Shown piece after piece: positions 5,585 through 21,198 of a DNA stretch of 32,270 nucleotides; position 1 is the stretch's first letter; the number at the start of each line of letters is the position of its first letter. Below the pieces are notes generated by a model that ran no database searches, was not told the origin of the DNA, and was given only the letters and a program-made list of their open reading frames with translations. Location: assembly GCA_029959365.1 (NCBI GenBank), contig JASCOA010000029.1:1-32270 (forward strand), written 5' to 3'. The position numbers and the translations under genes were made by a program. The stretch is from Microbacteriaceae bacterium PS02343. Its GTDB lineage: Bacteria > Actinomycetota > Actinomycetes > Actinomycetales > Microbacteriaceae.

Positions 5585-5673
5585 CACCCCGCCGCCGGCG
5601 CGCCATTGCGCCGTGCGACGGGGTGCAGGGCGGGGCCCGCTGAATCTGGCCGTTCAGCGGACCCCGCTCGTGG
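5585..5673. repeat. Dispersed hairpin repeat, copy 1 (also terminator-like)
   Basis: An 89-bp stretch closely resembles 18248-18337. Shared blocks include CACCCCGCCG, GCGCGCCATTGC, CTGGCCG and CCCGCTCGTGG. It contains a stem with arms at 5632-5644 and 5653-5665 (12 of 13 pairs) and an 8-base loop. It sits between two converging genes and includes the stop codon of the minus-strand gene, so it may serve as a bidirectional terminator. Confidence 0.75.
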
Positions 5674-6445
5674 TGACGATCCGCGTCCACGGGCCGTCGG
5701 GCACCTCGTCGTCCTCGACGAAGCGCCAGTCGATGCGGTCGTCCTCCCCGTCGAGATCCGAGAAGCCCAGGCACCCGTTGACGGCGGGCGAGACGTCCAT
5801 GCCCGCGCCGTTGTAGCGCTCGTTCGCGGGGCGGGCGTCGCCGCGGCCGAAGACGTACTCGGCGTCGGCGTACTCCCCCGGGCCCGCATCCTCGATCTGG
5901 GCGTAGCAGACGGCGCCGGCCCGATGCAGCATGATCCACCGGTTCTTGAGCAGGCTCGAGCGCGGGTCGTCGACGAGATGGGCGTACCCCGGCTCGTCGG
6001 CCCACGGCACGTGCTCGCCGCGCTCCGCGAAGCCCACCGGGTCGTTGACGTCGTCATAGGGCACGTCCACGTAGAAGGGGTTCTCGAGCGGCGTCATGGC
6101 CGTCGGGAAGTAGTCGGAGCGCTCGTCGCGCGGTTCGGTCTCGCAGCCGCCGTCGACGACCACCCCGTCGCAGCCGCCGTAGCTCTCCATCCAGAGGCTG
6201 TCGTAGGTCGAGAGCACCTGCGACCCGTCCGCGGCATCGGGGTCGAAGACCTCGCCGACCCAGAAGGTCGTGGCCACGATGCCCGTGTGCCAGGGGTGGT
6301 CGGAGGGCGGGCCCTCCGGCGGCGGCACCGGTCGCGCGGCGGTCACCGCGACGACCGCGACCACGATCGCGGCGGCGCCCAGCGCGGCGAGCGCCAGCAC
6401 CGGGCCGGGGCGGCGGGAGCGGTCATCCGCCCGTCTGCCCGACAC
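5654..6445 (-). CDS. Secreted DPBB-like conserved protein, last gene of polysaccharide operon
   Basis: 263 residues with one N-terminal hydrophobic segment (about 14-35), then an exported domain. Stretches such as ENPFYVDVPYDD, NRWIMLHRAGAVCYAQIEDAGPG and NGAGMDVSPAVNGCLGF resemble a family of exported actinobacterial and cyanobacterial proteins whose C-terminal part looks like a double-psi beta-barrel (RlpA/expansin-like). That recollection is of moderate certainty. Several cysteines suggest disulfides. The start is GTG at 6445 with GGAGG six bases upstream. It overlaps the preceding deacetylase by 23 bp, so translation is probably coupled. In context it may bind or remodel the exported polysaccharide or the cell wall. 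The stop codon lies inside the 3' arm of the hairpin repeat. Confidence 0.8.
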   Translation of the reverse strand: MSGRRADDRSRRPGPVLALAALGAAAIVVAVVAVTAARPVPPPEGPPSDHPWHTGIVATTFWVGEVFDPDAADGSQVLSTYDSLWMESYGGCDGVVVDGGCETEPRDERSDYFPTAMTPLENPFYVDVPYDDVNDPVGFAERGEHVPWADEPGYAHLVDDPRSSLLKNRWIMLHRAGAVCYAQIEDAGPGEYADAEYVFGRGDARPANERYNGAGMDVSPAVNGCLGFSDLDGEDDRIDWRFVEDDEVPDGPWTRIVTTSGVR

Positions 6446-7880
6446 GATCCGCCTCCGTCTCGTTAACGACCTCGACGGGTCCGGACGGCGGTGCGCTCGG
6501 CGCCTGCCTCGCGGCCGCGCTCGGCGCGACGAGCAGCATGGACGCGTCGTCGGTCACCAGCGTACCGTTGGAGAACAGGTTGAGGCCGAAGCTCATGCCG
6601 GTGTACCCGGCCGGGATCGGCGGGGTCTGCCAGGCGGCCTCGGCGTACGCGGTGGTCGCACCGAACCAGGGGCTCGAGGTCCAGTACTGCCAGGCCCCGC
6701 CGGAGGTGCGCAGGTACACCGCGAACTGCGTCACCGTCGTGGAGGTGTACCAGGTGCTGAGCGCATAGCTGCTGCCGGCGGCCACCGCCGGCGAGCAGGA
6801 GCCGAGGTCGAACTGCGGCAGCCACTTGGCGTCGCCGTCGGCGTAGCCCGACATCCGGACCCGGGCCGCCGTCGCGCCGGTGCGACCGGGGCTGACCGTG
6901 TCGAGCACCGCGGTGTTCGACCCGTAGCCGCCCTGCATCCAGCAGCTGGGTGCGCCGCCGGCCAGGGTCTCGAAACCGGGGTTCTGCACCGCGTTCACGC
7001 CCGCGGCGGGAGGCTGTTCGCCCGGGGCGACCACGATCGGCCGGGTCGCTCCCCCGACGACGTCGCCGACGGTGCGCACGACGGTGTTGCGGGTGCTCTC
7101 CCGGGCATCGAGCCACGTGGCGAACTGATTGAAGACCGTCGGGGTCACCGAGATGTCGCAGCCCGAGGCGCAGACGTTGTGGAAGGTGAACTGCACCCAG
7201 CCGCCGGTGACCTCGGCGCGGGTGACCGCGGCCTTGAGCTGCGCGAGGGTCCAGCTCGTCTCGACCTGGGCGAGCGCGCGGGTCGCGTAGGGATCGAGCG
7301 GCGGGATCGACTCGACCGCCGGGCACCCGCTGCAGCCGGAGGGCGAACGGAGGTCGCCGAGCAGCCGGGCGCTGTTGTACCCGCAGTCCTCGGCCTGCTG
7401 CTCGACGGCGGCGTTGCTGCTCGCGAAGGGGTAGGCGAAGCTCCGCACGTCGAAGCCCCAGGCCGCGAGCTGGGCGCGGTCGCCGCAGATCTGCCGCGCG
7501 GCCTCGGCGGCCGGCACGGAGGGCAGGTCGGGGTGGCTGACCGTGTGCCCGCCGATCTCGTGGCCGGACGCGGCCATCGCCTGCAGCTGCGGCAGGGTCA
7601 GGTAGCCGGCGGCGCCCACGAAGCCCGAGGGGATGTAGAAGGTGCCGGGCAGGTCGAGCGCGTCGAGCGCCGAGACGGCGGCGAGCTGGTTGGCGTTGCC
7701 GTCGTCGAAGGTGAGGCTCACGACGGTCTGCGGGCGCGTGGCCGCGGAGGCGGGCTGCGCGCTGCCGACGAAGCCGGTCGCGGCGAGCAGGCCCGCGAGC
7801 AGCAGCACGACCGCTCGTCGGCTGCGGTCGGGGATGACTCGGGTCTCGGGCACGGGGTTCCTCCTGCTGTGGGTGGTCAT
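6423..7880 (-). CDS. Secreted polysaccharide deacetylase with C-terminal carbohydrate-binding-like module (second copy)
   Basis: 485 residues. A signal peptide (about 21-47, ending SAQPASAA) is followed by a NodB homology domain: VVSLTFDDG with Asp59/Asp60, and HEIGGHTVSH with metal-binding His112 and His116. A conserved FAYPF and an FTFHNV segment follow. This family removes acetyl groups from N-acetylated glycans such as chitin-like polymers, poly-N-acetylglucosamine or peptidoglycan, using a divalent metal. After about residue 300 comes a second module (NPGFE, CWMQGGYG, AWQYWTSSPWF, SFGLN) that looks like a carbohydrate-binding jelly-roll. Its start is four bases after the stop of the upstream paralogue, indicating coupled translation. 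Strong similarity to that neighbour indicates a tandem duplication. Confidence 0.92.
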   Translation of the reverse strand: MTTHSRRNPVPETRVIPDRSRRAVVLLLAGLLAATGFVGSAQPASAATRPQTVVSLTFDDGNANQLAAVSALDALDLPGTFYIPSGFVGAAGYLTLPQLQAMAASGHEIGGHTVSHPDLPSVPAAEAARQICGDRAQLAAWGFDVRSFAYPFASSNAAVEQQAEDCGYNSARLLGDLRSPSGCSGCPAVESIPPLDPYATRALAQVETSWTLAQLKAAVTRAEVTGGWVQFTFHNVCASGCDISVTPTVFNQFATWLDARESTRNTVVRTVGDVVGGATRPIVVAPGEQPPAAGVNAVQNPGFETLAGGAPSCWMQGGYGSNTAVLDTVSPGRTGATAARVRMSGYADGDAKWLPQFDLGSCSPAVAAGSSYALSTWYTSTTVTQFAVYLRTSGGAWQYWTSSPWFGATTAYAEAAWQTPPIPAGYTGMSFGLNLFSNGTLVTDDASMLLVAPSAAARQAPSAPPSGPVEVVNETEADRVGQTGG

Positions 7881-7884
7881 GCGC

Positions 7885-9435
7885 TCATCCGCCGGCCCGG
7901 CGGGCTCGGTCGGCCTCGGTCTCGCCGTGCACCTCGACACCGCCCGCGACGTCGACCCGCTCGTCGGCGGCGTCGGCGTCGGAGCCCTCGGCGTCCGCCC
8001 GCAACCGCAGCGAGACGTCGTCGACGACGAGCTCGCCGTCGTGGAACACGTTCAGGCCGAAGCTGATCGCGTCGTAGCCGTCGGGGACCGGCGGCGTGGT
8101 CCAGGTGGCGAGCCGGTAGCTCGAAGACCTCGGGAACCACGAGCTGGAGGTCCAGTACTGCCACGCTCCGCGGTCGTTGCGCAGGTAGACGGAGAACTGC
8201 GTCGCACCCGTCGCGGTGTACCAGCTGCCGAGGTCGTACCTGGCGCCCGGCTCGACCGACGGCGAGCACTCGCCGAGATCGAAGCGCTGCAGCCACTTCG
8301 CATCGCCGTCCTCGTAGTCGCTCACCCGCACCCGCGCGGCGACGCCGCCGGTGCGACCGGGGCTCACGAAGTCGTGCACGGCCGCGTTGCCGCCGTAGCC
8401 GCCGAGCATCCAGCAGGACGGCAGTCCCCCGGTGTCCTCCTCGAAGCCCGGGTTCCGCACGGCGTTGGCGTCGGCGGTCGTCGGCGGATCGGCCGGGCCG
8501 ATGACGGCGGGCCCGGTGGGAGCGCCGATCACGTCGCCGACCGTGAGCACGGCCGTGCCGTGCGTGGCATGGCGGGCGGCCAGCCAGGTCGTGAACTGCT
8601 CGAACACCGCAGGGGTGACGCCGATCTCGCATCCGCTCGCGCAGACGTTGTGGAAGGTGATCTGGGTCCAGCCGCCGGTCTGCTCGGCGCGCAGCACCGC
8701 CGCCTGGAAGTCCTCGAGCGTCCAGGACGTCTCCACCTGGGCGAGGGCTCGGAGCGCGAAGGGCGCCGCCGGCACCAGGTCCTCCACCGGCGGGCAGTCG
8801 AGGCAGGTGGTGGGGCTCTGCAGCGCGCCGAGGAGGCGACCGCTGCTGTAGCCGCAGTCGCGCACCGCGTCCTGCACGGCCGGCGTGCTGCGGGCGAACG
8901 GATACGCGAAGCTGCGGGCGTCGAAGCCCCAGTCGAGCAGGCGGCTGCGATCGTCGCAGATCTGGCGGACCGCCTCGTCGGGCGTCGCCGCGACGAGGTC
9001 GGCGTGGTTCACCGTGTGACCGCCGATCTCGTGCCCCGCGGCCTCCATCGCGCGCAGCTGCCCGAGCGTCAGGGCGTCCGGGCCGTCGACGTGGCCGGAG
9101 GGCACGTAGAAGGTGGCGGGCATCGCGAGCCGGTTCAGCGTCTCGACGGCCGTCCACTGGTTGGCCGTGCCGTCGTCGAAGGTGAGGCTGACGACGGTGA
9201 GCGGCCGGCCGAGCGCCTCGGCGTCCTCCCGGGCCTGCTCGAGCGTGAGCTTGGGCTTCCGCATCACCGGCACGGCGATCGGCGCATCCTCGCTCGCCGC
9301 CGAGTCGGCGGTGGGCGGCGGGGCGGTCTCGGTGCCGACGCCGGCGCTGATGGCGACACCGGCGATGCTGAGCGCGGCGACCGCCGCGAGGGCCAGCAGC
9401 GGCCAGCGCCGGCCCTCGGTGCGGTGCCCGTTCAC
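7885..9435 (-). CDS. Secreted or anchored polysaccharide deacetylase with C-terminal carbohydrate-binding-like module (first copy)
   Basis: 516 residues. One N-terminal hydrophobic segment (about 11-33) is followed by a Ser/Ala/Pro linker, and no clear cleavage site is visible, so it may stay membrane anchored. The NodB domain has TFDDG with Asp87/Asp88 and HEIGGHTVNH with His140 and His144. The later part repeats the module seen in the next gene (NPGFE, CWMLGGYG, DGDAKWL, AWQYWTSSSWF). Expected role: N-deacetylation of an extracellular aminosugar polymer. The GTG start at 9435 overlaps the glmS stop as GTGA, which fixes the start and implies translational coupling. Confidence 0.92.
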   Translation of the reverse strand: MNGHRTEGRRWPLLALAAVAALSIAGVAISAGVGTETAPPPTADSAASEDAPIAVPVMRKPKLTLEQAREDAEALGRPLTVVSLTFDDGTANQWTAVETLNRLAMPATFYVPSGHVDGPDALTLGQLRAMEAAGHEIGGHTVNHADLVAATPDEAVRQICDDRSRLLDWGFDARSFAYPFARSTPAVQDAVRDCGYSSGRLLGALQSPTTCLDCPPVEDLVPAAPFALRALAQVETSWTLEDFQAAVLRAEQTGGWTQITFHNVCASGCEIGVTPAVFEQFTTWLAARHATHGTAVLTVGDVIGAPTGPAVIGPADPPTTADANAVRNPGFEEDTGGLPSCWMLGGYGGNAAVHDFVSPGRTGGVAARVRVSDYEDGDAKWLQRFDLGECSPSVEPGARYDLGSWYTATGATQFSVYLRNDRGAWQYWTSSSWFPRSSSYRLATWTTPPVPDGYDAISFGLNVFHDGELVVDDVSLRLRADAEGSDADAADERVDVAGGVEVHGETEADRARRAGG

Positions 9436-11240
9436 TCGACCGTCACCGACTTGGCGAGGTTGCGCGGCTTGTCCACGTCGTGACCGAGTCCGAGCGCGAT
9501 CTCCCGCGCCAGCACCTGCAGCGGCACGACCGACTCGAGCGGGCCGAGCCAGTCCACCGCGTCGATCGGGGCGGGCGAGCCGCCCAGCGCCGGGATGTCC
9601 GCGCCCAGGCCGCCGATGCGGATCACGCGGCCGCCGCGGGCGCCGACCTCGGCGATGTTGCCGGCCAGGCGCGCATCCGCCCCGTCCAGCACGATCACCG
9701 GGGTCTGCGCCTCGACGAGCGCCAGCGGGCCGTGCTTGAGCTCGCCCGCCGGGTAGGACTCGGCCCAGCGGTAGCTGAGCTCCTTGAGCTTCAGAGCGCC
9801 CTCCGCCGCGTAGACGACGCCCGCGCCGCGCGCGAGGAAGAGGAAGCCGTGCGCGTCGAGCAGGCCCCCGGCGATGCCGGGCACGAAGCGGTCGGCAACC
9901 CTCAGCGACTGCGCGAGCAGCTCGGGTACGCGGCGCAGGTCCTCGACCGCGGCCAGCACGCGCTCGCGGGGCATCCGACCGGTCGCACCCAGTGCGGCGA
10001 GCGCCAGACCGGTGCCGGTGAGCACCTGGGCGGTGAAGGTCTTCGTGGCCGCGACGCCGATCTCGGGGCCAGCGTGGCATGGCAGCACCGCGTCGGCTGT
10101 GCGAGCCAGGGTCGAGTGCGGTGCGTTGGTGATCGCGAGCACCGGGTTGCCCGGCGTGCGCAGCATCTCCACGGCGCGCAGCACGTCGGCGGTCTCGCCG
10201 GACTGGCTGAACGCCATGACGAGCGTCTGCTCCTCGAGGTAGGTGCTCGCCGCCTCGCTCGCCACCACGGCGGTGCTCGGGATGCCGGCCAGCCGGCCGA
10301 ACACCTCGGCGATCGCGATGCCGGCGTGCAGCGACGTGCCGCAGGCCACGACGGCGATGCGACGGAAGTCCGGCAGCGCCAGCGAGCGCCACGGCTCGCC
10401 CTGGGCGATGCCCGGCAGCAGCTCGGCGAGCACGCGCTCGGCGACGGCCGGCTGCTCGTCGATCTCCTTGGCCATGTGGTCGGGGTAGTCGCCCCGGTCG
10501 AGCTGCTCGTTCGAGACCGTGCACGGCATGGCGAGCGGAGCGGCGACCGCGCGGCCGCCCTGGGTCCATCGCGGCTCCGATCCCAGCGGATCGAGTTCGA
10601 CGACGTCGCCGCTGCGCAGGGCGCGGAAGCTCTCGACGCGGCCGGCGATGGCGCCGATGTCGCTGGCGAGCAGGTCGCCGTCGATCGAGCGGCCGAGCAC
10701 GAGCGGCGAGCGGTGCGCCGTCGCGACCACACGACCGTCCTCGGCGTCGAGCACGACGACGGCCCAGGCGCCCTCGAGGCGGCTCGCGGCGGCGCCGACG
10801 GCGTCGGCCAGACCGAGACCGTGCTGGCGCGCCTCCTCGATGAGGTGCGGGATCACCTCGCTGTCGACCTCCGAGGCGAAGCGGTGCCCCCGCTCCTCGA
10901 GCTCGGCTCGCAGCGCGGCGGCGTTCTCGACGATGCCGTTGTGCACCACCGCGAGCTCGCCGCTGCAGTCGCGATGCGGATGCGCGTTGCGCTCCGTCAC
11001 GCCGCCGTGCGTGGCCCAGCGGGTATGACCGATGCCGGTCGTCGCCAGGGTGTCGTCGTCGCGGAGCAGGCGTTCGAGCTGGGCGACGCGCTCGATGGTG
11101 CGCACGACGCGCAGGCCGCCGGCCCCGGTGCGCAGCGCGACGCCGGCCGAGTCGTAGCCGCGGTACTCCAGGCGCGCCAGCCCCTCGACGAGGGCGGGTG
11201 CGGCAGCACCGCTGAGGCGCGCCGCGATGATGCCGCACAT
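9432..11240 (-). CDS. glmS: Glutamine--fructose-6-phosphate aminotransferase (isomerizing)
   Basis: 602 residues, full length. After Met comes Cys2, the N-terminal nucleophile that releases ammonia from glutamine (MCGIIA). The class II amidotransferase domain (LEYRGYDSAG, HTRWATHG, HNGIVEN) is followed by two SIS sugar-isomerase domains (ACGTSLHAG, SQSGETADVLRA) and the conserved end DKPRNLAKSVTVE. It makes glucosamine-6-phosphate, the entry point to UDP-GlcNAc. Placement between an epimerase and two deacetylases suggests this copy supplies a polysaccharide rather than peptidoglycan, and a housekeeping glmS would be expected elsewhere. The start lies three bases after the epimerase stop, with GGAG overlapping the end of that gene. 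Confidence 0.96.
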   Translation of the reverse strand: MCGIIAARLSGAAAPALVEGLARLEYRGYDSAGVALRTGAGGLRVVRTIERVAQLERLLRDDDTLATTGIGHTRWATHGGVTERNAHPHRDCSGELAVVHNGIVENAAALRAELEERGHRFASEVDSEVIPHLIEEARQHGLGLADAVGAAASRLEGAWAVVVLDAEDGRVVATAHRSPLVLGRSIDGDLLASDIGAIAGRVESFRALRSGDVVELDPLGSEPRWTQGGRAVAAPLAMPCTVSNEQLDRGDYPDHMAKEIDEQPAVAERVLAELLPGIAQGEPWRSLALPDFRRIAVVACGTSLHAGIAIAEVFGRLAGIPSTAVVASEAASTYLEEQTLVMAFSQSGETADVLRAVEMLRTPGNPVLAITNAPHSTLARTADAVLPCHAGPEIGVAATKTFTAQVLTGTGLALAALGATGRMPRERVLAAVEDLRRVPELLAQSLRVADRFVPGIAGGLLDAHGFLFLARGAGVVYAAEGALKLKELSYRWAESYPAGELKHGPLALVEAQTPVIVLDGADARLAGNIAEVGARGGRVIRIGGLGADIPALGGSPAPIDAVDWLGPLESVVPLQVLAREIALGLGHDVDKPRNLAKSVTVE

Positions 11241-11243: not shown

Positions 11244-12269
11244 CTACTCCGTTCCGGCGGCGACCAGGCTGGCCTCCGCATCCGCTGCGCCGTCGTCGAT
11301 GCCGCTGCGCGAGCGGATGTCCGCCGCGATCGCGCGGATCATCTCGTCGAGCGGGGTGCGCGGCACGAAGCCCACGAGCTCGCCCGCGGCGGTGTTGTCG
11401 GGCACCCGACGGCGCATGTCCTCGAAGCCCTCGCCGGCGTAGGCCTCCTCGTAGGGCACGAGGCGGATGCCGCTGGAGCTGCCGGTCGCCGCGATGACGC
11501 GCTCGGCGAGCGCGCCGATGCTGATCTCCTCGGCGCCGCCGAGGTTGAAGGCGCGCCCGAGGGCACGGTCGTCCTCGGCGACGGCGACCAGCGCCGGCAC
11601 CACGTCGCGCACGTACGAGAAGCAGCGGGTCTGCTGCCCGTCGCCGAACACCGTGAGCTCGTCACCGCGCAGCGCCTGGCCGACCAGGTTCGGCACGACC
11701 ATGCCGTAGCGGCCGGACTGCCGCGGGCCGACGGTGTTGAACAGCCGCACGATGGCGACCTCCAGGCCCAGCTGCGTGAAGTACGCATGGGCGAAGGCCT
11801 CGTCGATGCCCTTGGCGGCGGCGTAGGTCCAGCGCGACTTCAGCGCCGAGCCCAGGATGCGGTCGGAGTCCTCGTGCAGGGCGTCGGCGGTGTTCTTGCC
11901 GTAGACCTCGCTCGTCGAGACGAGCAGCACCCGGGCACCGACCTCGTGTGCGGCCTCGAGCACGCGCTCGGTGCCGTGGATGTTCGTGCGCAGGCTCTTG
12001 AGCGGCTCGTCGATGATGAGGCGCACGCCCACGGCCGCGGCCAGGTGGAACACCCGGTCGGCCCCGGTGAGGGTGGCGCGCACGAGCTCGCCGTCGAGGA
12101 TGGTGCCCTCGACGATGCGCAACTGCGGGTCGCCGAGCAGGTGGGAGAGGTTCTGCAGGCTGCCGGTCGACAGGTCGTCGAGCACGACGACCTCGTCCCC
12201 GGCTGCGAGCAGGTGCTCGACGAGGTGGGAGCCGACGAAGCCGGCGCCGCCGGTGATGACGCTCCTCAC
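11244..12269 (-). CDS. NAD-dependent epimerase/dehydratase (nucleotide-sugar, extended SDR)
   Basis: 341 residues. The Rossmann motif GGAGFVG is at 7-13, the catalytic region VSTSEVYG at about 117-124, and Tyr149/Lys153 in TYAAAKG. The body (NTVGPRQSGRYGMVVP, FGDGQQTRCFSYVRDV, FNLGG) matches extended SDRs such as UDP-glucose 4-epimerase, UDP-GlcNAc 4-epimerase and UDP-glucuronate decarboxylase; these cannot be separated by eye. It probably interconverts or modifies the UDP-sugar made by its neighbour. The GTG start at 12269 overlaps the dehydrogenase stop as GTGA, indicating coupling. The order dehydrogenase-epimerase-GlmS points to a UDP-aminosugar or uronate precursor pathway. Confidence 0.93.
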   Translation of the reverse strand: MRSVITGGAGFVGSHLVEHLLAAGDEVVVLDDLSTGSLQNLSHLLGDPQLRIVEGTILDGELVRATLTGADRVFHLAAAVGVRLIIDEPLKSLRTNIHGTERVLEAAHEVGARVLLVSTSEVYGKNTADALHEDSDRILGSALKSRWTYAAAKGIDEAFAHAYFTQLGLEVAIVRLFNTVGPRQSGRYGMVVPNLVGQALRGDELTVFGDGQQTRCFSYVRDVVPALVAVAEDDRALGRAFNLGGAEEISIGALAERVIAATGSSSGIRLVPYEEAYAGEGFEDMRRRVPDNTAAGELVGFVPRTPLDEMIRAIAADIRSRSGIDDGAADAEASLVAAGTE

Positions 12270-13633
12270 GACCGCGCCCCCATCCGCTCGAAGCCGGCGT
12301 GATCGTGCTGGTCGACCGTGGGCGCCAGCGCACCGGTGGCATCGACGACGATGCGGTCGGCGCCGATCCACGAGGTGTCGAGAGCGGCGTGCCGTGTGTG
12401 CACGAAGATCAGCGTCGGGTCGAAGGCCTCGGGCTCCGCCAGCGCCTCGAGCACGGTGCCGTCGGGCAGCGCCACGAGCGGCACGTGCGGGTCGACGTAG
12501 GCGACCTCGACGCCGCCGTCGCGCAGCTGCTGCAGGATCTCGAGGGCCGGCGATTCGCGCACGTCCGCCACGTCGGGCTTGTAGGCGACGCCGAGCAGCA
12601 GCACGCGCGGGGCGGTGCCGGCCTGCTGGACGAGGGACTCGCGGATGCGGTGCACGATGCGGCCCGGTCGCGCGGCGATCTGCGTCATCGCCTCGGAGAT
12701 GACGGGCGCCTCGATGCGCGCGGCGCGCAGCTGCCAGAGCAGGTAGTGGGGGTCGCAGGGGATGCAGTGCCCGCCCACGCCCGGACCGGGCTGGAACGCC
12801 ATGAAGCCGTAGGGCTTCGTCGCGGCGGCGCCGATCACGGTGTGGACGTCGATGTCGAGGGACTGGCAGACGTCGGCGAACTCGTTGGCGAGCGCGATGT
12901 TGACGGCGCGAAACGTGTTCTCCAGGAGCTTGGTCATCTCGGCGGCCGCGAGCGACGGCACGCGGTGCACCTCGTCGACGGCGCGACCGAGGAGGGCGGC
13001 GGCCTCCTCCTCGCACTCGGGCGTGGCGGCGCCGATGACGCGCGGCACGGCCTCCTGGGCGACCCGGTCGTTGCCCGGGTCGATGCGCTCGGCGCTGAAG
13101 GCGACGAAGACGTCGCGACCGACCGTGAAGCCGGCCTCGGTCAGCGGCTCGACGAGCAGGTCCTGCGTGCAGCCGACGTAGGTGGTGGAGGTCAGCACGA
13201 TCACCTGGCCGCGCACGACGTGACGCAGCACGGTCGCGCAGGCCGCCCGCAGCATCGCGAGGTCGGGCACGAGGTACCGGTCGACGGGCGTGGGCACGCA
13301 GACGATGACCGCGGCGGCGCGGGCGATGCTCGCCACGTCGTCGCTGAAGGTCAGTCCCTCGTCGCCGAGCGCGCCGACCAGGCGGTCGCGGTCGCCCTGC
13401 ACCAGGTCGACGGCGCCGGAGCGGATGGCGTCGAGGCGGCGCGACGAGACGTCGACGCCGAGCACGCGCTGGCCGGCGTGGTGGTAGGCGAGCGCGGTCG
13501 GCAGACCCACGTAGCCGAGGCCGACGATGGCCACGTCGTAGGCGAAGCCCTCCTTCGCCGGGGCCTCGGGCGGCTGGTGCCTCGCGATCGTCGTGTCGAT
13601 GGTGGTGGGCCGTGCAGCGGCAGTCAGTGTCAT
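12266..13633 (-). CDS. Nucleotide sugar (UDP-sugar) 6-dehydrogenase, WecC/WbpA-like
   Basis: 455 residues. The NAD-binding motif GLGYVG is at 38-43, the central domain contains the KLLENTFRAVNIALANE helix, and the catalytic Cys290 lies in GGHCIPCDPHY. The C-terminal UDP-binding domain begins near RVLLLGVAYKPDVADVRESPA. This pattern fits the UDP-N-acetylmannosamine/UDP-N-acetylglucosamine dehydrogenase branch rather than UDP-glucose dehydrogenase, though the distinction is by eye. It oxidises C6 of a UDP-sugar to a uronic acid in two NAD+-dependent steps. It is the first gene of the operon. AAGGAA precedes the ATG at 13633, and longer in-frame upstream sequence is GC-rich intergenic material, so this start is preferred. 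Confidence 0.94.
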   Translation of the reverse strand: MTLTAAARPTTIDTTIARHQPPEAPAKEGFAYDVAIVGLGYVGLPTALAYHHAGQRVLGVDVSSRRLDAIRSGAVDLVQGDRDRLVGALGDEGLTFSDDVASIARAAAVIVCVPTPVDRYLVPDLAMLRAACATVLRHVVRGQVIVLTSTTYVGCTQDLLVEPLTEAGFTVGRDVFVAFSAERIDPGNDRVAQEAVPRVIGAATPECEEEAAALLGRAVDEVHRVPSLAAAEMTKLLENTFRAVNIALANEFADVCQSLDIDVHTVIGAAATKPYGFMAFQPGPGVGGHCIPCDPHYLLWQLRAARIEAPVISEAMTQIAARPGRIVHRIRESLVQQAGTAPRVLLLGVAYKPDVADVRESPALEILQQLRDGGVEVAYVDPHVPLVALPDGTVLEALAEPEAFDPTLIFVHTRHAALDTSWIGADRIVVDATGALAPTVDQHDHAGFERMGARS

Positions 13634-13688
13634 CGTCGTTCCTTCCCCTTGGCAGCGCGCCGTAGCTCCCCGGGGCTCGACGTCCCGC

Positions 13689-13897: not shown

Positions 13898-13929
13898 AAC
13901 GGGGTACACGGAACCCGCAACGGGGGTAC
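13898..13929 (+). promoter_or_regulatory. Two CGGGGTAC-like boxes upstream of GT2 synthase
   Basis: AACGGGGTAC at 13898-13907 and AACGGGGGTAC at 13919-13929 are in the same orientation with cores 22 bp apart (two helical turns). They are centred near -85 and -63 relative to the predicted start near 13989, a normal position for a class I activator. Similar boxes precede both LuxR genes. Confidence 0.45.
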
Positions 13930-13976
13930 AGCGGATTCCCGCAGATCGCTGCGGATCGTTGCGGTCGCGCGGCTCG

Positions 13977-13982
13977 TAGCGT
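13977..13982 (+). promoter_or_regulatory. -10 element TAGCGT of GT2 synthase
   Basis: Same hexamer type as the leaderless promoters, but about 39 bases upstream of the ATG, predicting a leader of about 33 bases with GAGGAG at 14012-14017. No good -35 is visible, consistent with activator dependence. Confidence 0.45.
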
Positions 13983-14021
13983 GGCGGGGTCCCCGATAAC
14001 GCCCACACGGCGAGGAGCCCC

Positions 14022-15311
14022 ATGCTGTCCACGGTGATCACCGTCGCCCTCGTGCTGGGAGTCAGCACCCTCGCCTGGTCGCTGGTCGGCCTCCTCCGCT
14101 GGTCGCGCCCCCGGGGCGCGCTCGCCGGCGATGCGCCAGGAGCGGATGCGGTGCGCATCGTCATCGCCGCCCGCAACGAGGAGCTCGTGCTCGGCGCGAC
14201 GCTGGACGCCGCGCTGGCGCTCGTGCCCGCAGAGCAGATCCACGTGATCTCGGACGGTTCGTCGGACGCGACCGCGGCCATCGCGAACGCGGCCGGGGTG
14301 CGACTGCTCGAGCGGCCGGTCAACGGCGGCAAGGCCGTCGCGCTAGCCCACGGCATCCGGCACTTCGAGCTCGATCGGCCCGGGCTCATCGTCCTCCTGC
14401 TCGACGCCGACACGCGGCTCGCGGAGGACTACCTGCGCACCGGCCTGCCGCTCTTCGCGGACGACGGCGTCGCCGCGGTCGCCGGCTACGCCTCGAGCGC
14501 GCGCGACGGCGCCGGCGGGGCGCTGCTCGGGCGGCTGCTGCTCGGCTACCGCCAGCGCACGTACTCGGCGATGCAGCTGCTGCACAAGTACGGACAGGCC
14601 GCACGGCACGCCAACGCGGTGAGCATCGTGCCCGGCTTCGCGAGCATGTACCGCGGCGACGTCGTCGCGCAGATCGACATCGACGCCCCCGGGCTGTCGA
14701 TCGAGGACTTCAACATGACCTTCGAGGTGCACGCGAAGCGGCTCGGGCGGATCGCCTTCGTGCCCGGGGCAGCGCACGCGGTGACGCAGGACCCCGACAC
14801 GCTGCGCGGCTACGCCAAGCAGGTGTTCCGGTGGGGGCTCGGCTACTGGCAGACCCTCCGTCGGCACCGGCCGTCCTTCACGCTGTTCTGGGCGGCGATC
14901 GGGCTCGCCTCCTTCGAGCTGATCGTCACGAACCTGCTGATCGTCGTGCTGACGCCGCTCACGGTCGTGGCGGGCGCCGCCACCGGGCTCGCCGCGCTCG
15001 GCGTCGATCCGGGAGGCTGGACGAGCGCGATCGCCGGCCTGCTGCCGTTCGGCGCGCTGCTGCTCGGCGTGCTCGCCGCCGACCTCGCGCTCTCCGTCTT
15101 CGCGGCGATCGTGAGCCGTCGGGGCGAGCTGCTCCTGCTCGCCCCCTTCTTCCCCGTCGTCCGGCTGGTCGATGCGGCGATGGGGCTGCGGGCCATGGTC
15201 GCCGCGCTGCGCCGGCCGTCCGACGGCGCGTGGCGCAGCCCCGAGCGCCGCGCCGCCGCTCAGGCGCCGATGCCCCGCATCGCCGTGCTCGCGAGCGCCG
15301 ATCCGAGCTGA
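14022..15311 (+). CDS. Processive family 2 glycosyltransferase (PgaC/NodC/hyaluronan-synthase-like)
   Basis: 429 residues. One N-terminal membrane segment (about 4-25) precedes a GT-A domain. SDGSSD contains Asp78, Lys104 lies in NGGK, the DXD is Asp128-Ala-Asp130, the acceptor-site acidic pair is Glu228-Asp229 (SIEDFNMTFEVH), and the processivity motif QVFRW is at 267-271. Further membrane segments follow at about 286-320, 333-360 and 370-390. These features define inverting, membrane-embedded synthases that polymerise and extrude beta-linked polymers such as poly-GlcNAc, chitin oligomers or hyaluronan. The product here is unknown, but GlmS and deacetylases in the facing operon favour an N-acetylhexosamine polymer. 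Its last 52 bases overlap the 3' end of the convergent LuxR gene. Confidence 0.93.
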   Translation: MLSTVITVALVLGVSTLAWSLVGLLRWSRPRGALAGDAPGADAVRIVIAARNEELVLGATLDAALALVPAEQIHVISDGSSDATAAIANAAGVRLLERPVNGGKAVALAHGIRHFELDRPGLIVLLLDADTRLAEDYLRTGLPLFADDGVAAVAGYASSARDGAGGALLGRLLLGYRQRTYSAMQLLHKYGQAARHANAVSIVPGFASMYRGDVVAQIDIDAPGLSIEDFNMTFEVHAKRLGRIAFVPGAAHAVTQDPDTLRGYAKQVFRWGLGYWQTLRRHRPSFTLFWAAIGLASFELIVTNLLIVVLTPLTVVAGAATGLAALGVDPGGWTSAIAGLLPFGALLLGVLAADLALSVFAAIVSRRGELLLLAPFFPVVRLVDAAMGLRAMVAALRRPSDGAWRSPERRAAAQAPMPRIAVLASADPS

Positions 15312-17917
15312 GCGCGCGAGGCGATGCCCAGGGTGCGGTAGATGCGGGTCAGCCGCTGCTCGACCGTGCGCACCGACAGGAAGAGCGCCTCCGCGATCTC
15401 GCGGTTGCGGGCGCCGCGCTGCACCAGGCGCACGATCTCGAGCTCCTCCCCGGAGAGCTGCGCCTCGCCCGGAACCCCCGTCGGCTCGGATGCGCAGCCC
15501 ACGGCGCGCGCGGACCAGGCCACCGCACCGGCGCCGTCGAACGCCGCGACGGCGGCTGCGCGCACCATCCGCTCGTCGTCCGTCATGCCGAGCTGCCCGA
15601 GCCGTTCGGCGAAGGCGAGCTGAGTGCGACCGAGCTCGTAGGGCGAGTCACCGGGTTCGAACGCCTCGACGGCGCTCTGGAACAGGGGCACGGATGCGGC
15701 GCCGGAGCTGGTCTGAGCCCGCAACCGCAGCAGCAGCTGCCGCCCCCACCGGGACGGACGCCGCGCGTGACGCTGCCGGAAGGCCGCGATCTCCTCGTTC
15801 GCGCGGGTGGTGAGCCCGAGCTGCAGCGCCGCCTCGATGGAGTCCCCGACGTGGCGCAGCTGATGCTCCGGGCCGCCCAGGCGGCGCAGACGCCCGAGCA
15901 CGAGGCCCTGGCGCAGGGTCTCCTCCGGGTCGTCCTGCAGCAGCGCGAAGCTGGCGTGCAGTGCCGCCGTGCGGGCCTGCAGCGACGGGTTGCTCTCGTG
16001 CAGGGCCCGGCGCATCGACTCCTCGATCAGCGGCGCGGCCGCTTCCGCATCGCCGAGGCTCACCCGATGCCACGCGGCGAGCAGGGTCTGCAGGGCGCTT
16101 CCGGGGTCCGCGCGCACGGCGAACGGCGCCTCGATCAGCAGCCGCGCCGATCGGTGATCGCCCGCTGCGATCTCGTTGTCGATGCTGAGCATGCGGGCGG
16201 CGTCGCCCCACAGCGGCTCCGCCGGACGCGGGAACGCCATGAGGCTCGCGAGCAGGAGCCGAGCGGCCGCGTGCTCCTCGCCCCAGATGAGGCTTCGAGC
16301 CCGCAGCAGCCCGAGGGGCGGCTGCTGCAGCAGTGCGCGGTCCAGGACCCCGGCGGCGCCGGGCGAGCGGCCGTCGTGCGCATCGACCATCGCCTCGACG
16401 GCGAGCAGGAGGCCGCGAGTCTCCGGTGCGAGTTCCTCGGCGAGCTCGCCGGCCTGGGCGAGCAGCGATCGACTCGCTGCGAGCTCCCACTGCTCGGCGC
16501 GCAGCGCGGCGGCGGCGGCGAGCAGCGCGACCGCTCCGTCCGGGGCCTCGGCGCCGTGCACCATGGCGATGGCGGCGACCTCGCCGTCGCCCAGCGGCGC
16601 ACCCGCGAGCGCGCCGGCACCCACTCGCACCATCGCGGCGCGGGTGATCTCCGCGGAGCTCGCCTCGTCCAGCCGGGCGAAGCCGAGGTACCGATTGGCC
16701 GCATCGACGTCGCCGTGCAGCACGAGGCGCTCGGCGAGGGAGACGAGCAGCGGATCGGAGCGGCCGTGCGGCACCGCGAGGCGCACGGCGCGCTCGGCGA
16801 ACTCCATCGCGACGTCGCCGTCGCCCTCTTCGGCGAAGGCGACCGCGGCCCGCAGCAGCTCCTCCCCGGCTGCGGGGTCCGCCTGCTCCTGGCTGCGGTG
16901 CCATGCTGCGAGGCGGTCGTCGAGGGGCTCGTGCAGCACCGCGAGCGCGTGATGCCGCTGCCGTCGGGTGCGCCCGCTCATCGACCAGTAGACGTGGGCG
17001 CGCAGGCGGGGATCGCGGATCCTGACCGTGCCGGCGCGCACCAGCAGCAGTCCTTCGCTCATCAGGTCGTCGAGCACGTCGGGCGACGACCCGCTCTCCC
17101 CGCCCGGCGCAGCGCCGAGCACGCCGAGGTGCAGCTGCGGCGCCAGGGCGATGTCGTCGAGCGCACGGCGCTCGTCGGGCTGCAGTCGAGCGAGGCTCCG
17201 CTGCGCGGCGATGGCGAGCCCGGTCTTCGGCTGCAGCGGCAGCTGCAGGCCGGTGCGCCCGGCGAGCTCGTCGCGATCCGCGCCGAGCAGCTGCTCCCGG
17301 AGCTCGGTCGGGTTGCCGGCGCTCAGCTGCACCAGCAGCCGCAGGGCGCCCTCGTCGACCTCGGTCGTGACCCGGCCGCGCTCCAGTGCCGCTTCGGGGT
17401 CGAGCGGGGCCAGCTCGATGACCTCGGTGCCGCCGAAGGGGCTGCGCGGGGTGACCTCCTCGGCGGCGAGCACGAACCGCAGGCCCGTGCCCGAGAGGCG
17501 CTCGGCCATGAGCCCGAGCAGCTGACGGCTGTCGTCATCGAGACCGTCGGCGTCGTCGACGAGGACGACCGTCGACGGCAGCTGCAGTCCGCGCAGCATG
17601 CCGAGCACGTCGTGCGCGGCCGCGAAGAGCCTCCCCTGCTCGCCGGGGCGCAGCGCGAACCGGCCGCCGAACTCGACGGCGCGCCGGTCGTCGACCGCCG
17701 CGGCGATCGCGGAGAACCCGGAGAGCGGGAAGGTCCGCTCCGCGGGGTTGGCGCGCACGAGCACCACCGAGCCCTCGAGGGCCTGCGCGGCCTCCTCGAG
17801 GAGTTGCGTCTTGCCGATCCCGGGTTCGCCGACCACGACGAGCGCTCCCTCTCGGGGCGCCTCGGCGAGGTCGACGATCCTGGCGAGAGCGGCTCTGCGA
17901 TCGAGCCGGTGCCGCAT
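15260..17917 (-). CDS. LuxR family transcriptional regulator with AAA ATPase domain (LAL type), copy 1
   Basis: 885 residues, the size of large ATP-binding LuxR regulators. Walker A GEPGIGKT is at 30-37, and a Walker B-like VVLVDDAD lies at about 115-123. A long helical-repeat middle part follows, then a C-terminal LuxR helix-turn-helix at about 821-875 (NREIAEALFLSVRTVEQRLTRIYRTLGI). This class (MalT-like) uses NTP-dependent oligomerisation to activate promoters. It is a paralogue of the next gene upstream. No strong ribosome site precedes the ATG at 17917; a -35/-10 pair lies about 140-170 bp upstream. It converges with, and overlaps by 52 bp, the polysaccharide synthase, which suggests local control of that locus. 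Confidence 0.93.
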   Translation of the reverse strand: MRHRLDRRAALARIVDLAEAPREGALVVVGEPGIGKTQLLEEAAQALEGSVVLVRANPAERTFPLSGFSAIAAAVDDRRAVEFGGRFALRPGEQGRLFAAAHDVLGMLRGLQLPSTVVLVDDADGLDDDSRQLLGLMAERLSGTGLRFVLAAEEVTPRSPFGGTEVIELAPLDPEAALERGRVTTEVDEGALRLLVQLSAGNPTELREQLLGADRDELAGRTGLQLPLQPKTGLAIAAQRSLARLQPDERRALDDIALAPQLHLGVLGAAPGGESGSSPDVLDDLMSEGLLLVRAGTVRIRDPRLRAHVYWSMSGRTRRQRHHALAVLHEPLDDRLAAWHRSQEQADPAAGEELLRAAVAFAEEGDGDVAMEFAERAVRLAVPHGRSDPLLVSLAERLVLHGDVDAANRYLGFARLDEASSAEITRAAMVRVGAGALAGAPLGDGEVAAIAMVHGAEAPDGAVALLAAAAALRAEQWELAASRSLLAQAGELAEELAPETRGLLLAVEAMVDAHDGRSPGAAGVLDRALLQQPPLGLLRARSLIWGEEHAAARLLLASLMAFPRPAEPLWGDAARMLSIDNEIAAGDHRSARLLIEAPFAVRADPGSALQTLLAAWHRVSLGDAEAAAPLIEESMRRALHESNPSLQARTAALHASFALLQDDPEETLRQGLVLGRLRRLGGPEHQLRHVGDSIEAALQLGLTTRANEEIAAFRQRHARRPSRWGRQLLLRLRAQTSSGAASVPLFQSAVEAFEPGDSPYELGRTQLAFAERLGQLGMTDDERMVRAAAVAAFDGAGAVAWSARAVGCASEPTGVPGEAQLSGEELEIVRLVQRGARNREIAEALFLSVRTVEQRLTRIYRTLGIASRAQLGSALASTAMRGIGA

Positions 17918-18337: not shown

Positions 18338-18567
18338 GGCCGCTGGGGCCGGATGGGGTTCGCAGACGACGGCACCGCCATCGGGACGGCAGCGGCGCCG
18401 TCGCCTGCGTGGGACGACCGCTTGGGGGGATGGTCCTGCTCAGCTGCAGGAGCGGCGTCTGGGGCCACTCTGGTCGACCCCGTGCACCGGGTCAACGGAT
18501 GCGGGCGAGGTGCGCGGTCGCCCGCAATCACTCCCGCGGTGGGTGACGGACCCCGCAGCGGGCGCTC

Positions 18568-21198
18568 CTATCGAGCGGAGCGCGAGAGCAGCGCGGCGAG
18601 CTGCGACCGCGACTCGATGCCGAGCGAACGGTAGATGCGGGTCAGTCGCAGCTCGACCGTGCGCAGCGAGACGAAGAGCGCGTCGGCGATCTCCTGATTG
18701 CGCTGCCCGAGCAGCACGCGACGGACGATCTCGCGTTCGTCGTCGCTGAGCAGCGAGGTCGCCAGCACCTCGCTCATCTGCACGCCGGTGCCGCCGGCGC
18801 GCGCCGACCAGCCAGCGGAGCCAGCGGCTTCGAAGGCGCTCTGCGCGGCGAAGCGCTGCTCCCGCGCCGAGTCCGCCTCGCCCAGCGCACCGAGACGATC
18901 CGAGAAGGCCAGGAGGGTGCGGCCGAGCTCGAAGGGCGAATCGAGCGGCGTGAAGGCGTCGCGCGCCGCTTCGAACGGCGCGATCGCCGCTGCGCCCGGT
19001 TGCAGCAGCGCCTGCACGCGCTGCAGCACCATCGAACCCCGCCGCGACGGACGCTTCTTGAGCTGCGTGCGCAGCCGGGCCGCCGCCACCGTGCCCTCCG
19101 CGTTCCGCCCGACCGCGACGCACGCCTCGACGTGATCGCCGATCGAGGCCAGGTATCCGATGCTCCGGTACTGCGCCGGCTGCCGCTCGATGCGCTCGTG
19201 CTCGCGGAGGGACGTCTCCGGATCGCCGCGCAGCAGCGCCGACTCCGCGAGCTGCGCCGCGGCGGCGATGACGATCGACGGCTGGCCCTCCGAGCCGGCG
19301 CGCTCGGCGGCCTCGCGCAGCAGGGGCTCGGCGCCGTCGGATCGATCGAGCGACGCAGCGAACCACCCCTGCAGCAGCAGGTTGCGCGAGCTCGACGCCG
19401 GAACCCACGGCGACGCGGTGCCCCACTCGGCGATCGCGGCTCGCGCCGCCCGGTGATCACCCGCCGAGATCTCGTTGCGCGCCAGGTGGTAGTGCGCGAT
19501 ATCGGCCCAGACCGGCTCGTCCGGCGTCGGCGAGATGATCAGCGAGGAGAGCACCGCTCGTGCCTCGCCGTAGCGCTCGGCCCAGGTGAGCCCGTGCGCT
19601 CGGATGAGCATGCGGAAGGGGTCCCGCTCCTCCGCTTCGCCCGTCTCCGGTTCGTAGCGGCCGGTCTCCAGAGCGGCGACCGAGCTGCGCACGGCGGCCA
19701 CCAGCGACGCAGCCCGCGGCTCGAGCGGCGGGAGGGCCGCCGCCTGCGCGAGCAGCGCGCGGCTCTCCTTCAGATTCCATCGCTCGGCGTGGGCGATGGC
19801 CGCGACGGCGAGCAGCGATCCCGCGCCGTCGGGGTCGGAGCGGCTGTGCAGTCCTGCGACGACCCCGATGCGCCCGTCCTGGACGTGCTCCGAGCGCGAC
19901 AGTCCGAGCCTCAGCGACATGATCGTCAGCCGTATCGCGTCGGCGTGCGATCCGGAGAGCCCCTCCGCGGTGCGCACGTACCGTGCCGCCGCACCGAGCT
20001 CCCCGCGGTGCAGCAGGGCATCGGCGAGCTCGAGGAGCGGGGAGAGCAGTGCGTCGCGATCCGGCGCGAGCAGCAGCGCGCGCTCGGCGAACTCGATGGC
20101 CGTGTCGCTCTCGGCGATGGCCGCGAGCTCGATGGCGCACCGCAGCAGCAGTTCACCGGATCGGTCGTCGCTGTCGACGAAGCTGTCGTGCCAACGGGCG
20201 CTGCGCTCGTCGAACGGTCGCGTCCGCGTGGCGAGCTCCCGGTGCCGTTCGCGCACGATGCGGCTGCTGCGCATCCAGAAGAGGTGCGCGCGCAGCCGGG
20301 GATCCCGCACCGACACCGACAGCCCTCGCGAGGCCAGCACGCCCTCCGCGATCAGGTCGAGCGCTGCGCCGCGACTGGATTCCTCGAGGTCCTCGTGGTC
20401 GAGCGCCCGCAACGGCGTCATCGGCGCGAGCGCGACGTCCTGCAGCAGGCGCAGCTCCTCGTCGCTCCGCTGCCCGAGCAGATGCTGCACCAGATCGCCG
20501 AGCGCGGTCGACGGTCGCGGTGGCAGCACGAGCGGCTCTATGCCGCGCAGCGCCGCGGGCTCGGCGGAGCGCACGTGCTCGCGCAGCACGAGCGGGTTGC
20601 CCGCGCTGCGCCGTGCCAGCAGCTCGACGACCGCGGGGTCCGCCCCCGGTGCGAGGACGGCGCCGATGGCGGCGAGGTCCTCGCAGCTCAGCGGCAGCAT
20701 CCGCAGCACCGTCGTGCCGAGCAGCGGACTCGTGGAGGGCAGCCTCGTCGCCGTCATGATCAACCGCAGTCCGGTCCCACCGAGCCGATTCGCCATGAGG
20801 CCGACGAGCAGCAGGCTCTCGGTGTCGAGCTGGTCGACGTCGTCGATGAGCACCGTGGCGGGGGCGAGCCGCAGGCCCCGCAGCATCACCAGCACGTCGT
20901 GCGCCGCCGCGAGCATCTGCGAGGGCTCAGCGCTGCGCAGCGTGAACCGCCCGCCGAACTCGATGGCTCGCGGATCGTCGATCGCGGCGAAGACCGCCGA
21001 GAACCCGGCGAGGGGGTAGTCCGACTCCCCCGCGTTGATCCGCACCAGCGAGCCGTGCTCCAGTGCCGCGGTCACCTCGGCGATCAGGTGGCTCTTGCCG
21101 ATCCCAGGCTCGCCGAGCAGCAGGATCGAACCCTCCCGATCGCCTTCCGCGACCGCGATGAGCGCTGCCGCGGCCTCAGCACGGTCGACCGGACGCAT
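18568..21198 (-). CDS. LuxR family transcriptional regulator with AAA ATPase domain (LAL type), copy 2
   Basis: 876 residues with the same architecture as its neighbour: Walker A GEPGIGKS at 29-36, Walker B-like VLIDDVDQLD near 115-124, a long helical middle, and a C-terminal LuxR helix-turn-helix at about 816-870 (NQEIADALFVSLRTVELRLTRIYRSLGI). The ATPase parts share long matches (EFGGRF, AAAHDVL, MLRGL, GTGLR), so the pair arose by duplication. No Shine-Dalgarno is obvious before the ATG at 21198. A CGGGGTAC box lies about 85 bp upstream. Likely a transcription activator, with target inferred from location to be the polysaccharide genes and perhaps itself. Confidence 0.93.
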   Translation of the reverse strand: MRPVDRAEAAAALIAVAEGDREGSILLLGEPGIGKSHLIAEVTAALEHGSLVRINAGESDYPLAGFSAVFAAIDDPRAIEFGGRFTLRSAEPSQMLAAAHDVLVMLRGLRLAPATVLIDDVDQLDTESLLLVGLMANRLGGTGLRLIMTATRLPSTSPLLGTTVLRMLPLSCEDLAAIGAVLAPGADPAVVELLARRSAGNPLVLREHVRSAEPAALRGIEPLVLPPRPSTALGDLVQHLLGQRSDEELRLLQDVALAPMTPLRALDHEDLEESSRGAALDLIAEGVLASRGLSVSVRDPRLRAHLFWMRSSRIVRERHRELATRTRPFDERSARWHDSFVDSDDRSGELLLRCAIELAAIAESDTAIEFAERALLLAPDRDALLSPLLELADALLHRGELGAAARYVRTAEGLSGSHADAIRLTIMSLRLGLSRSEHVQDGRIGVVAGLHSRSDPDGAGSLLAVAAIAHAERWNLKESRALLAQAAALPPLEPRAASLVAAVRSSVAALETGRYEPETGEAEERDPFRMLIRAHGLTWAERYGEARAVLSSLIISPTPDEPVWADIAHYHLARNEISAGDHRAARAAIAEWGTASPWVPASSSRNLLLQGWFAASLDRSDGAEPLLREAAERAGSEGQPSIVIAAAAQLAESALLRGDPETSLREHERIERQPAQYRSIGYLASIGDHVEACVAVGRNAEGTVAAARLRTQLKKRPSRRGSMVLQRVQALLQPGAAAIAPFEAARDAFTPLDSPFELGRTLLAFSDRLGALGEADSAREQRFAAQSAFEAAGSAGWSARAGGTGVQMSEVLATSLLSDDEREIVRRVLLGQRNQEIADALFVSLRTVELRLTRIYRSLGIESRSQLAALLSRSAR

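Follow-up and report, generated by a model that had tools for sequence, protein, structure and literature searches.

A co-conserved gene cassette of Microbacteriaceae and other actinobacteria that may direct a synthase-dependent aminosugar polysaccharide

The subject of this analysis is a nine-gene system at positions 5654-21198 of a contig from Microbacteriaceae bacterium PS02343; the window is the whole stretch of 32,270 bases that was analyzed. Its closest described relatives are systems for other polysaccharides. The class I hyaluronan systems, HasABC and those of chloroviruses, share a membrane-integrated family-2 glycosyltransferase (GT2) of the closest predicted fold. Compared with hyaluronan operons, the cassette adds a short-chain dehydrogenase/reductase (SDR) of predicted decarboxylase type, carbohydrate esterase family 4 (CE4) deacetylases and a double-psi beta-barrel (DPBB) protein, and its dehydrogenase (UGDH) is probably of the UDP-N-acetylhexosamine (UDP-HexNAc) type. 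The poly-N-acetylglucosamine (PNAG) operons pgaABCD and icaADBC and Streptomyces matAB share a GT2 synthase with an exported CE4 deacetylase, and genes of glycoside hydrolase family 18 (GH18) type lie near some of our loci; the cassette differs in having a dehydrogenase and an SDR, and in a GT2 that falls far below the PgaC/IcaA cut-off (TIGR03937; 60.9 bits against 422.3). The first-pass annotation held that the locus matches neither hyaluronan nor PNAG operons, and this view is supported. A pair formed by a UDP-N-acetylglucosamine (UDP-GlcNAc) 6-dehydrogenase and an SDR is shared with TviB/TviC of the Vi antigen.

Other relatives are known to us from portions of published reports. Chlorovirus hyaluronan systems share a nucleotide-sugar dehydrogenase and GlmS/GFAT as precursor enzymes, and excerpts of the same report state that the three hyaluronan genes of PBCV-1 do not work as an operon (PMC5408694). 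Chitin synthase clusters of chloroviruses, phaeoviruses and fungi contain a UDP-GlcNAc 6-dehydrogenase, and the chlorovirus class also a polysaccharide deacetylase, so that synthase, dehydrogenase and deacetylase stand side by side as they do here; these clusters have a chitin synthase, and the excerpted text does not mention an SDR decarboxylase, a DPBB protein or a LAL regulator (PMC5122149). In Bordetella, BB2925/BB2924 form the same kind of dehydrogenase and SDR pair, the SDR there being a 4-epimerase according to the part of the report consulted, whereas the cassette SDR carries a decarboxylase signature (PMC12407052). A five-term search of a 2020 survey of synthase-dependent operons met no mention of dehydrogenases or epimerases (PMC7112194), and a literature search over listings and abstract openings found no paper describing the gene set of the cassette. 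The cassette is real and joins the synthase-dependent polysaccharide systems as a variant, the chemistry of its polymer being deduced from its genes. We put forward, as an evenly balanced proposition, that these genes make up a self-contained actinobacterial unit whose product is an aminosugar polysaccharide of the cell surface, formed by a synthase-dependent route by way of UDP-GlcNAc, UDP-N-acetylglucosaminuronate (UDP-GlcNAcA) and UDP-N-acetyl-xylosamine (UDP-XylNAc). The features of the locus are as follows.

14022..15311, plus strand: GT2, processive family-2 polysaccharide synthase (Pfam Glyco_tranf_2_3, QxxRW, AlphaFold2 model)
12266..13633, minus strand: UGDH, probable UDP-HexNAc 6-dehydrogenase, UDP-GlcNAc to UDP-GlcNAcA (TIGR03026, three UDPG_MGDP_dh domains)
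11244..12269, minus strand: extended SDR, likely UDP-uronate decarboxylase type (Pfam Epimerase/SDR, T-S-E, YxxxK, RRxP)
9432..11240, minus strand: GlmS, second copy, cassette-borne (Pfam SIS plus GATase, TIGR01135)
7885..9435, minus strand: DAC1, secreted CE4 polysaccharide deacetylase with C-terminal extension (Polysacc_deac_1, CE4 motifs)
6423..7880, minus strand: DAC2, secreted CE4 polysaccharide deacetylase with C-terminal extension (Polysacc_deac_1, CE4 motifs)
5654..6445, minus strand: DPBB/expansin-like exported protein, predicted to be membrane-anchored (hydrophobic N-terminus, predicted structure)
15260..17917, minus strand: LAL1, LAL-type LuxR regulator (Pfam AAA_16 plus GerE)
18568..21198, minus strand: LAL2, LAL-type LuxR regulator (Pfam AAA_16 plus GerE)
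13634..14021, no strand: shared promoter region of the divergent GT2 and UGDH genes; the bases of its G-rich stretch at 13689-13775 are doubtful
13930..13943, plus strand: putative LAL operator AGCGGATTCCCGCA, one mismatch to TGCGG-N4-CCGCA, in the divergent promoter

Re-called open reading frames (ORFs) placed all nine genes where the first-pass annotation had them. On the minus strand, UGDH, SDR, GlmS, DAC1, DAC2 and the DPBB gene follow one another with overlaps or at most 4 nt between neighbors, as expected of the six-gene overlapping operon proposed earlier; GT2 diverges from this operon across a gap of 388 bp, and both LAL genes lie beyond the 3' end of GT2, which LAL1 overlaps. Pfam and NCBIfam agree with the gene names given earlier apart from some finer calls, in particular 'epimerase'. 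The absence of Wzx/Wzy also held: a Pfam scan of 20 window proteins, which covered all but four small ORFs outside the locus, showed no such domain.

Co-conservation of the genes was examined in two partly overlapping sets of loci. A GT2-only search of 398 genomes of the family (match, E ≤ 1e-30) found matches in 38 genomes from 18 of 85 genera, the source genome being included in both counts. For the GT2-chosen set, up to about 20 kb of DNA was taken around every match outside the source genome, which gave 38 stretches from 37 genomes. UGDH was present in 38/38 of these, the SDR in 37/38 (the exception, L075, begins at the start of its contig), a CE4 deacetylase in 37/38 and the DPBB protein in 36/38; the flanks outside the cassette differ between genera. 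For the DPBB-chosen set, an alignment of the DPBB protein was compared with a collection of species genomes, and the best 80 of 157 relatives were kept as named loci. A core of GT2, UGDH, SDR, deacetylase and DPBB protein, each at 80 bits or more, was complete in 72/80. Four loci (L103, L117, L121, L145) have the core without a deacetylase in the stretch, two (L150, L152) have the DPBB protein without any other core gene, and two (L086, L153) have an incomplete core in shorter stretches. The first-pass annotation had named co-conservation of GT2 with the operon as a point on which its proposal could fail, and had called for a synteny check across the family; most of the gene set proved strongly co-conserved in the GT2-chosen stretches, and the complete core of the DPBB-chosen loci points the same way. 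Among 87 dereplicated loci, pairwise identities of GT2, UGDH and SDR correlate with one another at 0.85-0.87 and with that of the DPBB protein at 0.44-0.56; these correlations, which have no outside gene as a control, may in part reflect species ancestry.

The cassette is not confined to Microbacteriaceae. Carriers include Microbacterium, Arthrobacter, Pseudarthrobacter, Cryobacterium, Curtobacterium, Herbiconiux, Nakamurella and Aeromicrobium, as well as Lentzea, Amycolatopsis, Pseudonocardia, Prescottella, Modestobacter, Quadrisphaera and Arsenicicoccus. The DPBB protein was found in 3/59 relatives and in 2/396 genomes sampled evenly across the phylum (source genome included in each), and we therefore regard the system as sporadic. 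The other phylum genome, the distant G572, has three contigs with DPBB homologues, three in all and 37-41% identical, which may form a family of their own. The idea of a plasmid-borne cassette found no support, the DPBB protein having no match in 72,556 plasmid records. In Nakamurella leprariae (L083, 10851-14872), Hen1-like and Pnkp-like RNA repair genes directly follow the cassette.

A potential concern with the divergent arrangement is the quality of the assembly. The source genome consists of 3.42 Mb in 239 contigs. The stretch at 13689-13775 holds a run of nine Gs, the sole G/C run of at least 7 in the window outside positions 2-75; the latter, at the contig start, has G/C runs of 18, 15 and 20 identical letters. 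In the 60 printed regions out of 84 other divergent regions the longest run is 7. The runs at both places are likely to be poor base calls or a sequencing artefact. They touch no gene of the locus, 13689-13775 being intergenic. Misassembly of the join, raised in the first-pass annotation, was rejected for the gene order, which recurs identically in 84 other stretches (64 after dereplication); the letters of 13689-13775 themselves remain doubtful.

The GT2 has the features of a processive membrane synthase. The QxxRW motif is present in 39/39 and 43/43 rows of two alignments (each with the window row) and the motif IED[FYL]N in 39/39 and 41/43, and hydrophobic segments flank the GT domain on both sides. 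The AlphaFold2 model (pLDDT, the predicted local distance difference test score, 90.9) matched Chlorella virus hyaluronan synthase best (Z 28.4, 3.1 Å over 364 residues, 17% identity), followed by the archaeal mannosyltransferase PcManGT (Z 27.4) and E. coli cellulose synthase (Z 26.6). The model supports a membrane synthase of the hyaluronan-synthase-like kind, a fold that names no particular sugar, and by analogy with hyaluronan and cellulose synthases the chain would leave through the membrane channel of the GT2 itself. A search of PDB sequences gave a sole match, glucosyl-3-phosphoglycerate synthase (E 0.007). PgaC and NodC are not among the fold matches listed, which is no evidence against them.

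UGDH scores above the cut-off of TIGR03026, a general model for NDP-sugar dehydrogenases, and reaches no equivalog cut-off in NCBIfam. Its scores are 214 bits for WecC, 160 for TviB, 123 for AglM, 116 for TuaD and 37 for Ugd, and its best PDB matches are Cap5O and an archaeal UDP-ManNAcA dehydrogenase. Since models of UDP-HexNAc dehydrogenases outscore those of UDP-glucose dehydrogenases, the enzyme is probably of the UDP-HexNAc type. UDP-ManNAc as substrate requires a 2-epimerase, and PF02350, the UDP-GlcNAc 2-epimerase family, has no match in 35/38 carrier genomes, so that UDP-GlcNAc is the likely substrate. A ManNAcA polymer, considered on account of the resemblance to UDP-ManNAc dehydrogenases, was set aside on the same count, except for the source genome, which has a PF02350 match and where such a polymer is conceivable. 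The cassette GlmS scores 575 bits against TIGR01135 and a separate genomic copy 762 bits; a second GlmS points to demand for UDP-GlcNAc.

The SDR, labeled 'epimerase' in the first-pass annotation, resembles a UDP-uronate decarboxylase instead. Motifs were scored in copies of at least 150 bits from two overlapping sets. S-T-S-E-[VI]-Y-G, which contains the T-S-E signature, is present together with YxxxK and RRxP in 37/37 and 76/76 copies. T-S-E, YxxxK and the conserved C-terminal Arg make up the signature of UXS/ArnA-type decarboxylases, which these counts and an alignment with UXS1 support. When the family profile was compared with the PDB, the sole match below E 1e-60 was human UXS1, a UDP-glucuronate decarboxylase (235 bits). 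UDP-XylNAc itself has a precedent: a 2010 study by Gu and co-workers reportedly concerns, to go by its title, a UDP-XylNAc pathway in Bacillus cereus subsp. cytotoxis, which would make UDP-2-acetamido-2-deoxyxylose a bacterial nucleotide sugar there, as is likewise proposed here. According to excerpts of published work, a TSE triad is found in most UDP-GlcA decarboxylases, although mutation of the triad Glu had little effect in one enzyme that has TDE (PMC10338323); according to another report, also consulted in part, UXS, UAXS and ArnA have a Glu where the 4-epimerase has its carboxylate-binding Ser (PMC7984243). These motifs and matches make a UDP-uronate decarboxylase likely, with N-acetyl-xylosamine (XylNAc) as its end product and neither an aminouronate nor a C4 epimer.

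DAC1 and DAC2 both combine a Polysacc_deac_1 domain with the metal-binding Asp and His motifs of CE4 enzymes (TFDD, HTVNH and RSFAYPF in DAC1; TFDD, HTVSH and RSFAYPF in DAC2), and each begins with a hydrophobic segment. The weak PDB matches of DAC2 include chitin deacetylases. Counts over all deacetylase ORFs of the two sets, which include cut and fused ones, gave TFDD in 37/39 and TFDD or SFDD in 71/90, and H-xxx-H in 31/39 and 70/90. In L051, L063 and L078 the cassette deacetylases lie within ORFs of 1100-1800 aa; that of L063 has cell-wall-binding CWB2 repeats and that of L051 weak Ig-like matches. Neither Pfam nor NCBIfam has a family that matches the DPBB protein. It has a hydrophobic N-terminal segment and many invariant alignment columns, and in most homologues a lipobox-like Cys follows the hydrophobic segment, which the window protein lacks. 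Its model (pLDDT 83) matched kiwellin (Z 8.2; Foldseek E 7e-4) and expansins (Z 7.9), both over about 100 residues, and Cel45 (6.1), moderate scores of which those under 8 can reflect a common arrangement of elements; they are consistent with a double-psi beta-barrel, and the earlier DPBB-like label fits the predicted resemblance to DPBB/expansin-type proteins. By fold comparison alone, the model also matched the viral chitosanase V-Csn (Z 5.8), which we take to belong to the GH75 chitosanase family. Two groups of genes that neighbor the cassette in other genera are of chitinase type: c19 occurs in 12/80 named loci, with two tested members matching GH18 (95 and 99 bits, Pfam), and c16 in 17/80, with one tested member matching Exochitinase 1 (166 bits, PDB). 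Their presence hints at a chitin-like backbone.

LAL1 and LAL2 each have an N-terminal AAA domain and a C-terminal LuxR helix-turn-helix (HTH) in about 900 aa, and are 43% identical to each other (BLASTP). None of the 68 stretches with an ORF-called LAL of the window type holds two such genes within the stretch examined. Regulation by a LAL is probable for the locus; the 'regulator pair' of the first-pass annotation probably reflects a local duplication. The recognition helix is conserved among the 68 LALs (consensus RTVELRLT). Arthrobacter-type loci (L092, L096, L106 and others) lack the divergent arrangement; upstream of UGDH they carry a tandem pair of LALs that belong to another type and whose recognition helix differs (consensus like LRTVEGHLYRMFAKL).

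A candidate operator emerged from the 85 divergent GT2/UGDH regions (window included), which left 65 after dereplication. Enriched words in these regions resolve to the palindrome TGCGG-N4-CCGCA, which was derived and counted in the same regions; LAL labels played no part in finding it. Exact copies occur in 40/65 regions, where 100 dinucleotide-resampled sets average 0.08; with one mismatch allowed the count is 54/65, for an average of 2.3 in the resampled sets. Within one mismatch its density is 4.33/kb inside the divergent regions and 0.134/kb in the rest of the loci. In a first split by LAL, a site within one mismatch was present in 51/55 regions with a LAL and 3/10 without. The final split is 56 regions against 8, with L104 dropped, as its stretch ends before a possible LAL, and L063 counted as LAL-positive by tblastn: the exact palindrome is present in 39/56 regions with the LAL type and 0/8 without it (Fisher p 2.4e-4), and the palindrome within one mismatch in 52/56 and 1/8. 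Under a stricter call (tblastn at 150 bits or more, window row excluded) the corresponding counts were 41/44 and 12/20 (Fisher p 0.0025), a threshold judged too harsh in that several LALs called by BLASTP score below it. Shared ancestry is a confounder of this association, the loci without a LAL being few and partly related. We consider TGCGG-N4-CCGCA in the shared promoter a probable LAL operator. In the window, the copy departs from the palindrome at one position, and 78 bp separate its end from the start of GT2. Upstream of GT2, at 13893-13943, are two similar 22-nt units (CCGCCAACGGGGTACA type), perhaps tandem binding sites, the second of which runs into the putative operator.

The protein families, motifs, co-conservation and palindrome, with its LAL association in relatives, are properties of the sequences compared; from them we infer enzyme activities, sugar and linkage, and what the DPBB protein and the LAL do. 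In the proposed pathway, the extra GlmS would raise flux to UDP-GlcNAc, which UGDH would oxidize at C6 to UDP-GlcNAcA; the SDR would decarboxylate this to UDP-XylNAc or its 4-keto form. The GT2 would polymerize XylNAc, alone or with GlcNAc, and extrude the chain through its own membrane channel, so that no flippase would be needed. Secreted CE4 enzymes would then strip N-acetyl groups to leave a partly cationic polymer, which the surface-anchored DPBB/expansin-like protein may bind, loosen or cut, and the LAL would bind TGCGG-N4-CCGCA in the shared promoter to control both arms. In its most specific form, which we offer tentatively, the product would be an N-acetyl-xylosamine polymer, an 'aminoxylan' or chitin analogue without C6, partly deacetylated at the surface, under a LAL family with a conserved TGCGG-N4-CCGCA operator across many actinobacterial genera. 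Of the partially deacetylated aminosugar and aminouronate polymer suggested earlier, the aminosugar, the deacetylation and the synthase-dependent route are retained; the aminouronate is replaced by N-acetyl-xylosamine, which the TSE signature makes likelier.

Several observations weigh against the cassette as proposed. A LAL was found in 31/38 GT2-chosen stretches and is absent from 7; GlmS is present in 22/38, with one further partial match, leaving 16/38 without a full GlmS, and it is a full cluster member in 38/80 DPBB-chosen loci. GT2 has no match in the one further genome of the genus, as would fit a cassette that has been gained or lost. As matches to the GT2 model, hyaluronan synthase, the archaeal mannosyltransferase and cellulose synthase differ by no more than about 2 Z units and so do not name the sugar. 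The top equivalog of UGDH is a UDP-ManNAc dehydrogenase, the subfamily cut-off alone is reached, and the source genome is among the three carriers with a PF02350 gene, located on another contig. The SDR is below the cut-off in all 25 NCBIfam models listed, the best of these being the 4,6-dehydratase LegB (TIGR04180; 174.1 bits against 475). The tested c16 member has no Pfam family. As to the operator, 31 non-divergent loci with UGDH have the exact palindrome in 0/31 and one within one mismatch in 2/31, so that the cassette does not always come with it; taken by itself, the window copy falls short of significance (2 sites within one mismatch, 5 expected by chance), and the whole genome, which is GC-rich, has 450 sites within one mismatch, about 20 of them exact, against 345 for a reversed control.

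Four alternative readings were considered. It is unlikely, if the best placed of them, that the same system has a UDP-GlcNAcA 4-epimerase as its SDR and a polymer that holds GalNAcA or GlcNAcA, as in the Vi antigen. The TviB and TviC models do match, weakly; TviC (NF011728) reaches 68.3 bits against a cut-off of 760. Excerpts on Bordetella BB2925/BB2924 describe a dehydrogenase and SDR that make UDP-GlcNAcA and then UDP-GalNAcA (PMC12407052), whereas every SDR copy scored here has the TSE Glu, a decarboxylase mark in the portions consulted of PMC7984243 and PMC10338323. Somewhat less likely still, UGDH would act on UDP-glucose and the SDR would yield UDP-xylose, in a polymer alternating GlcNAc with GlcA or xylose, either hyaluronan-like or a relative of hyaluronan that bears xylose. 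The closeness of the GT2 fold to hyaluronan synthase, the UDP-glucuronate decarboxylase as best PDB match of the SDR, and the co-occurrence of synthase, UDP-glucose dehydrogenase and GFAT in PBCV-1, as excerpted from PMC5408694, all agree with such a polymer; the UGDH scores (WecC and TviB above AglM, TuaD and Ugd) argue against it. We think it improbable that the SDR is a 4,6-dehydratase acting on UDP-GlcNAc in parallel to UGDH, giving a polymer with a 6-deoxy aminosugar and an aminouronate. LegB is its best NCBIfam match, at a score far under the cut-off; 4,6-dehydratases usually carry TDE in place of the T-S-E seen here, and in most loci of both sets the SDR adjoins UGDH, which fits successive steps. 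Very improbable is a short glycan on the cell wall or a lipid carrier in place of bulk exopolysaccharide, the GT2 then transferring a single sugar or a few: the PcManGT match, to an enzyme not known to us as a polysaccharide synthase, would suit it, and QxxRW in 82/82 rows of the two alignments, a GT domain with hydrophobic segments to either side, secreted deacetylases and chitinase-type neighbors speak against it.

Outside the locus, an Acyltransferase-3 family membrane protein and a convergent GT1-type glycosyltransferase at 28659-31772 of the window are possibly a second surface-glycan locus. The composition profile has strong and opposite AT skews of 0.32 at 26001-27000 and -0.35 at 29001-30000; the former has no tandem repeats and the latter one short one. 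An Rfam scan of the window gave no match, and PADLOC gave just weak LuxR-HTH-region matches, to the LALs.

If the aminosugar polysaccharide cassette proposed here is borne out, the few polysaccharides that bacteria make by synthase-dependent routes would gain a further polymer class. To our knowledge, little is known of the surface glycans of soil and plant-associated actinobacteria, and the binding sites of LAL regulators are mostly unknown. The locus has its own genes for precursors, synthesis, modification and regulation, and is thus testable in a laboratory host, and the conserved palindrome offers a directly testable target for LAL regulators.

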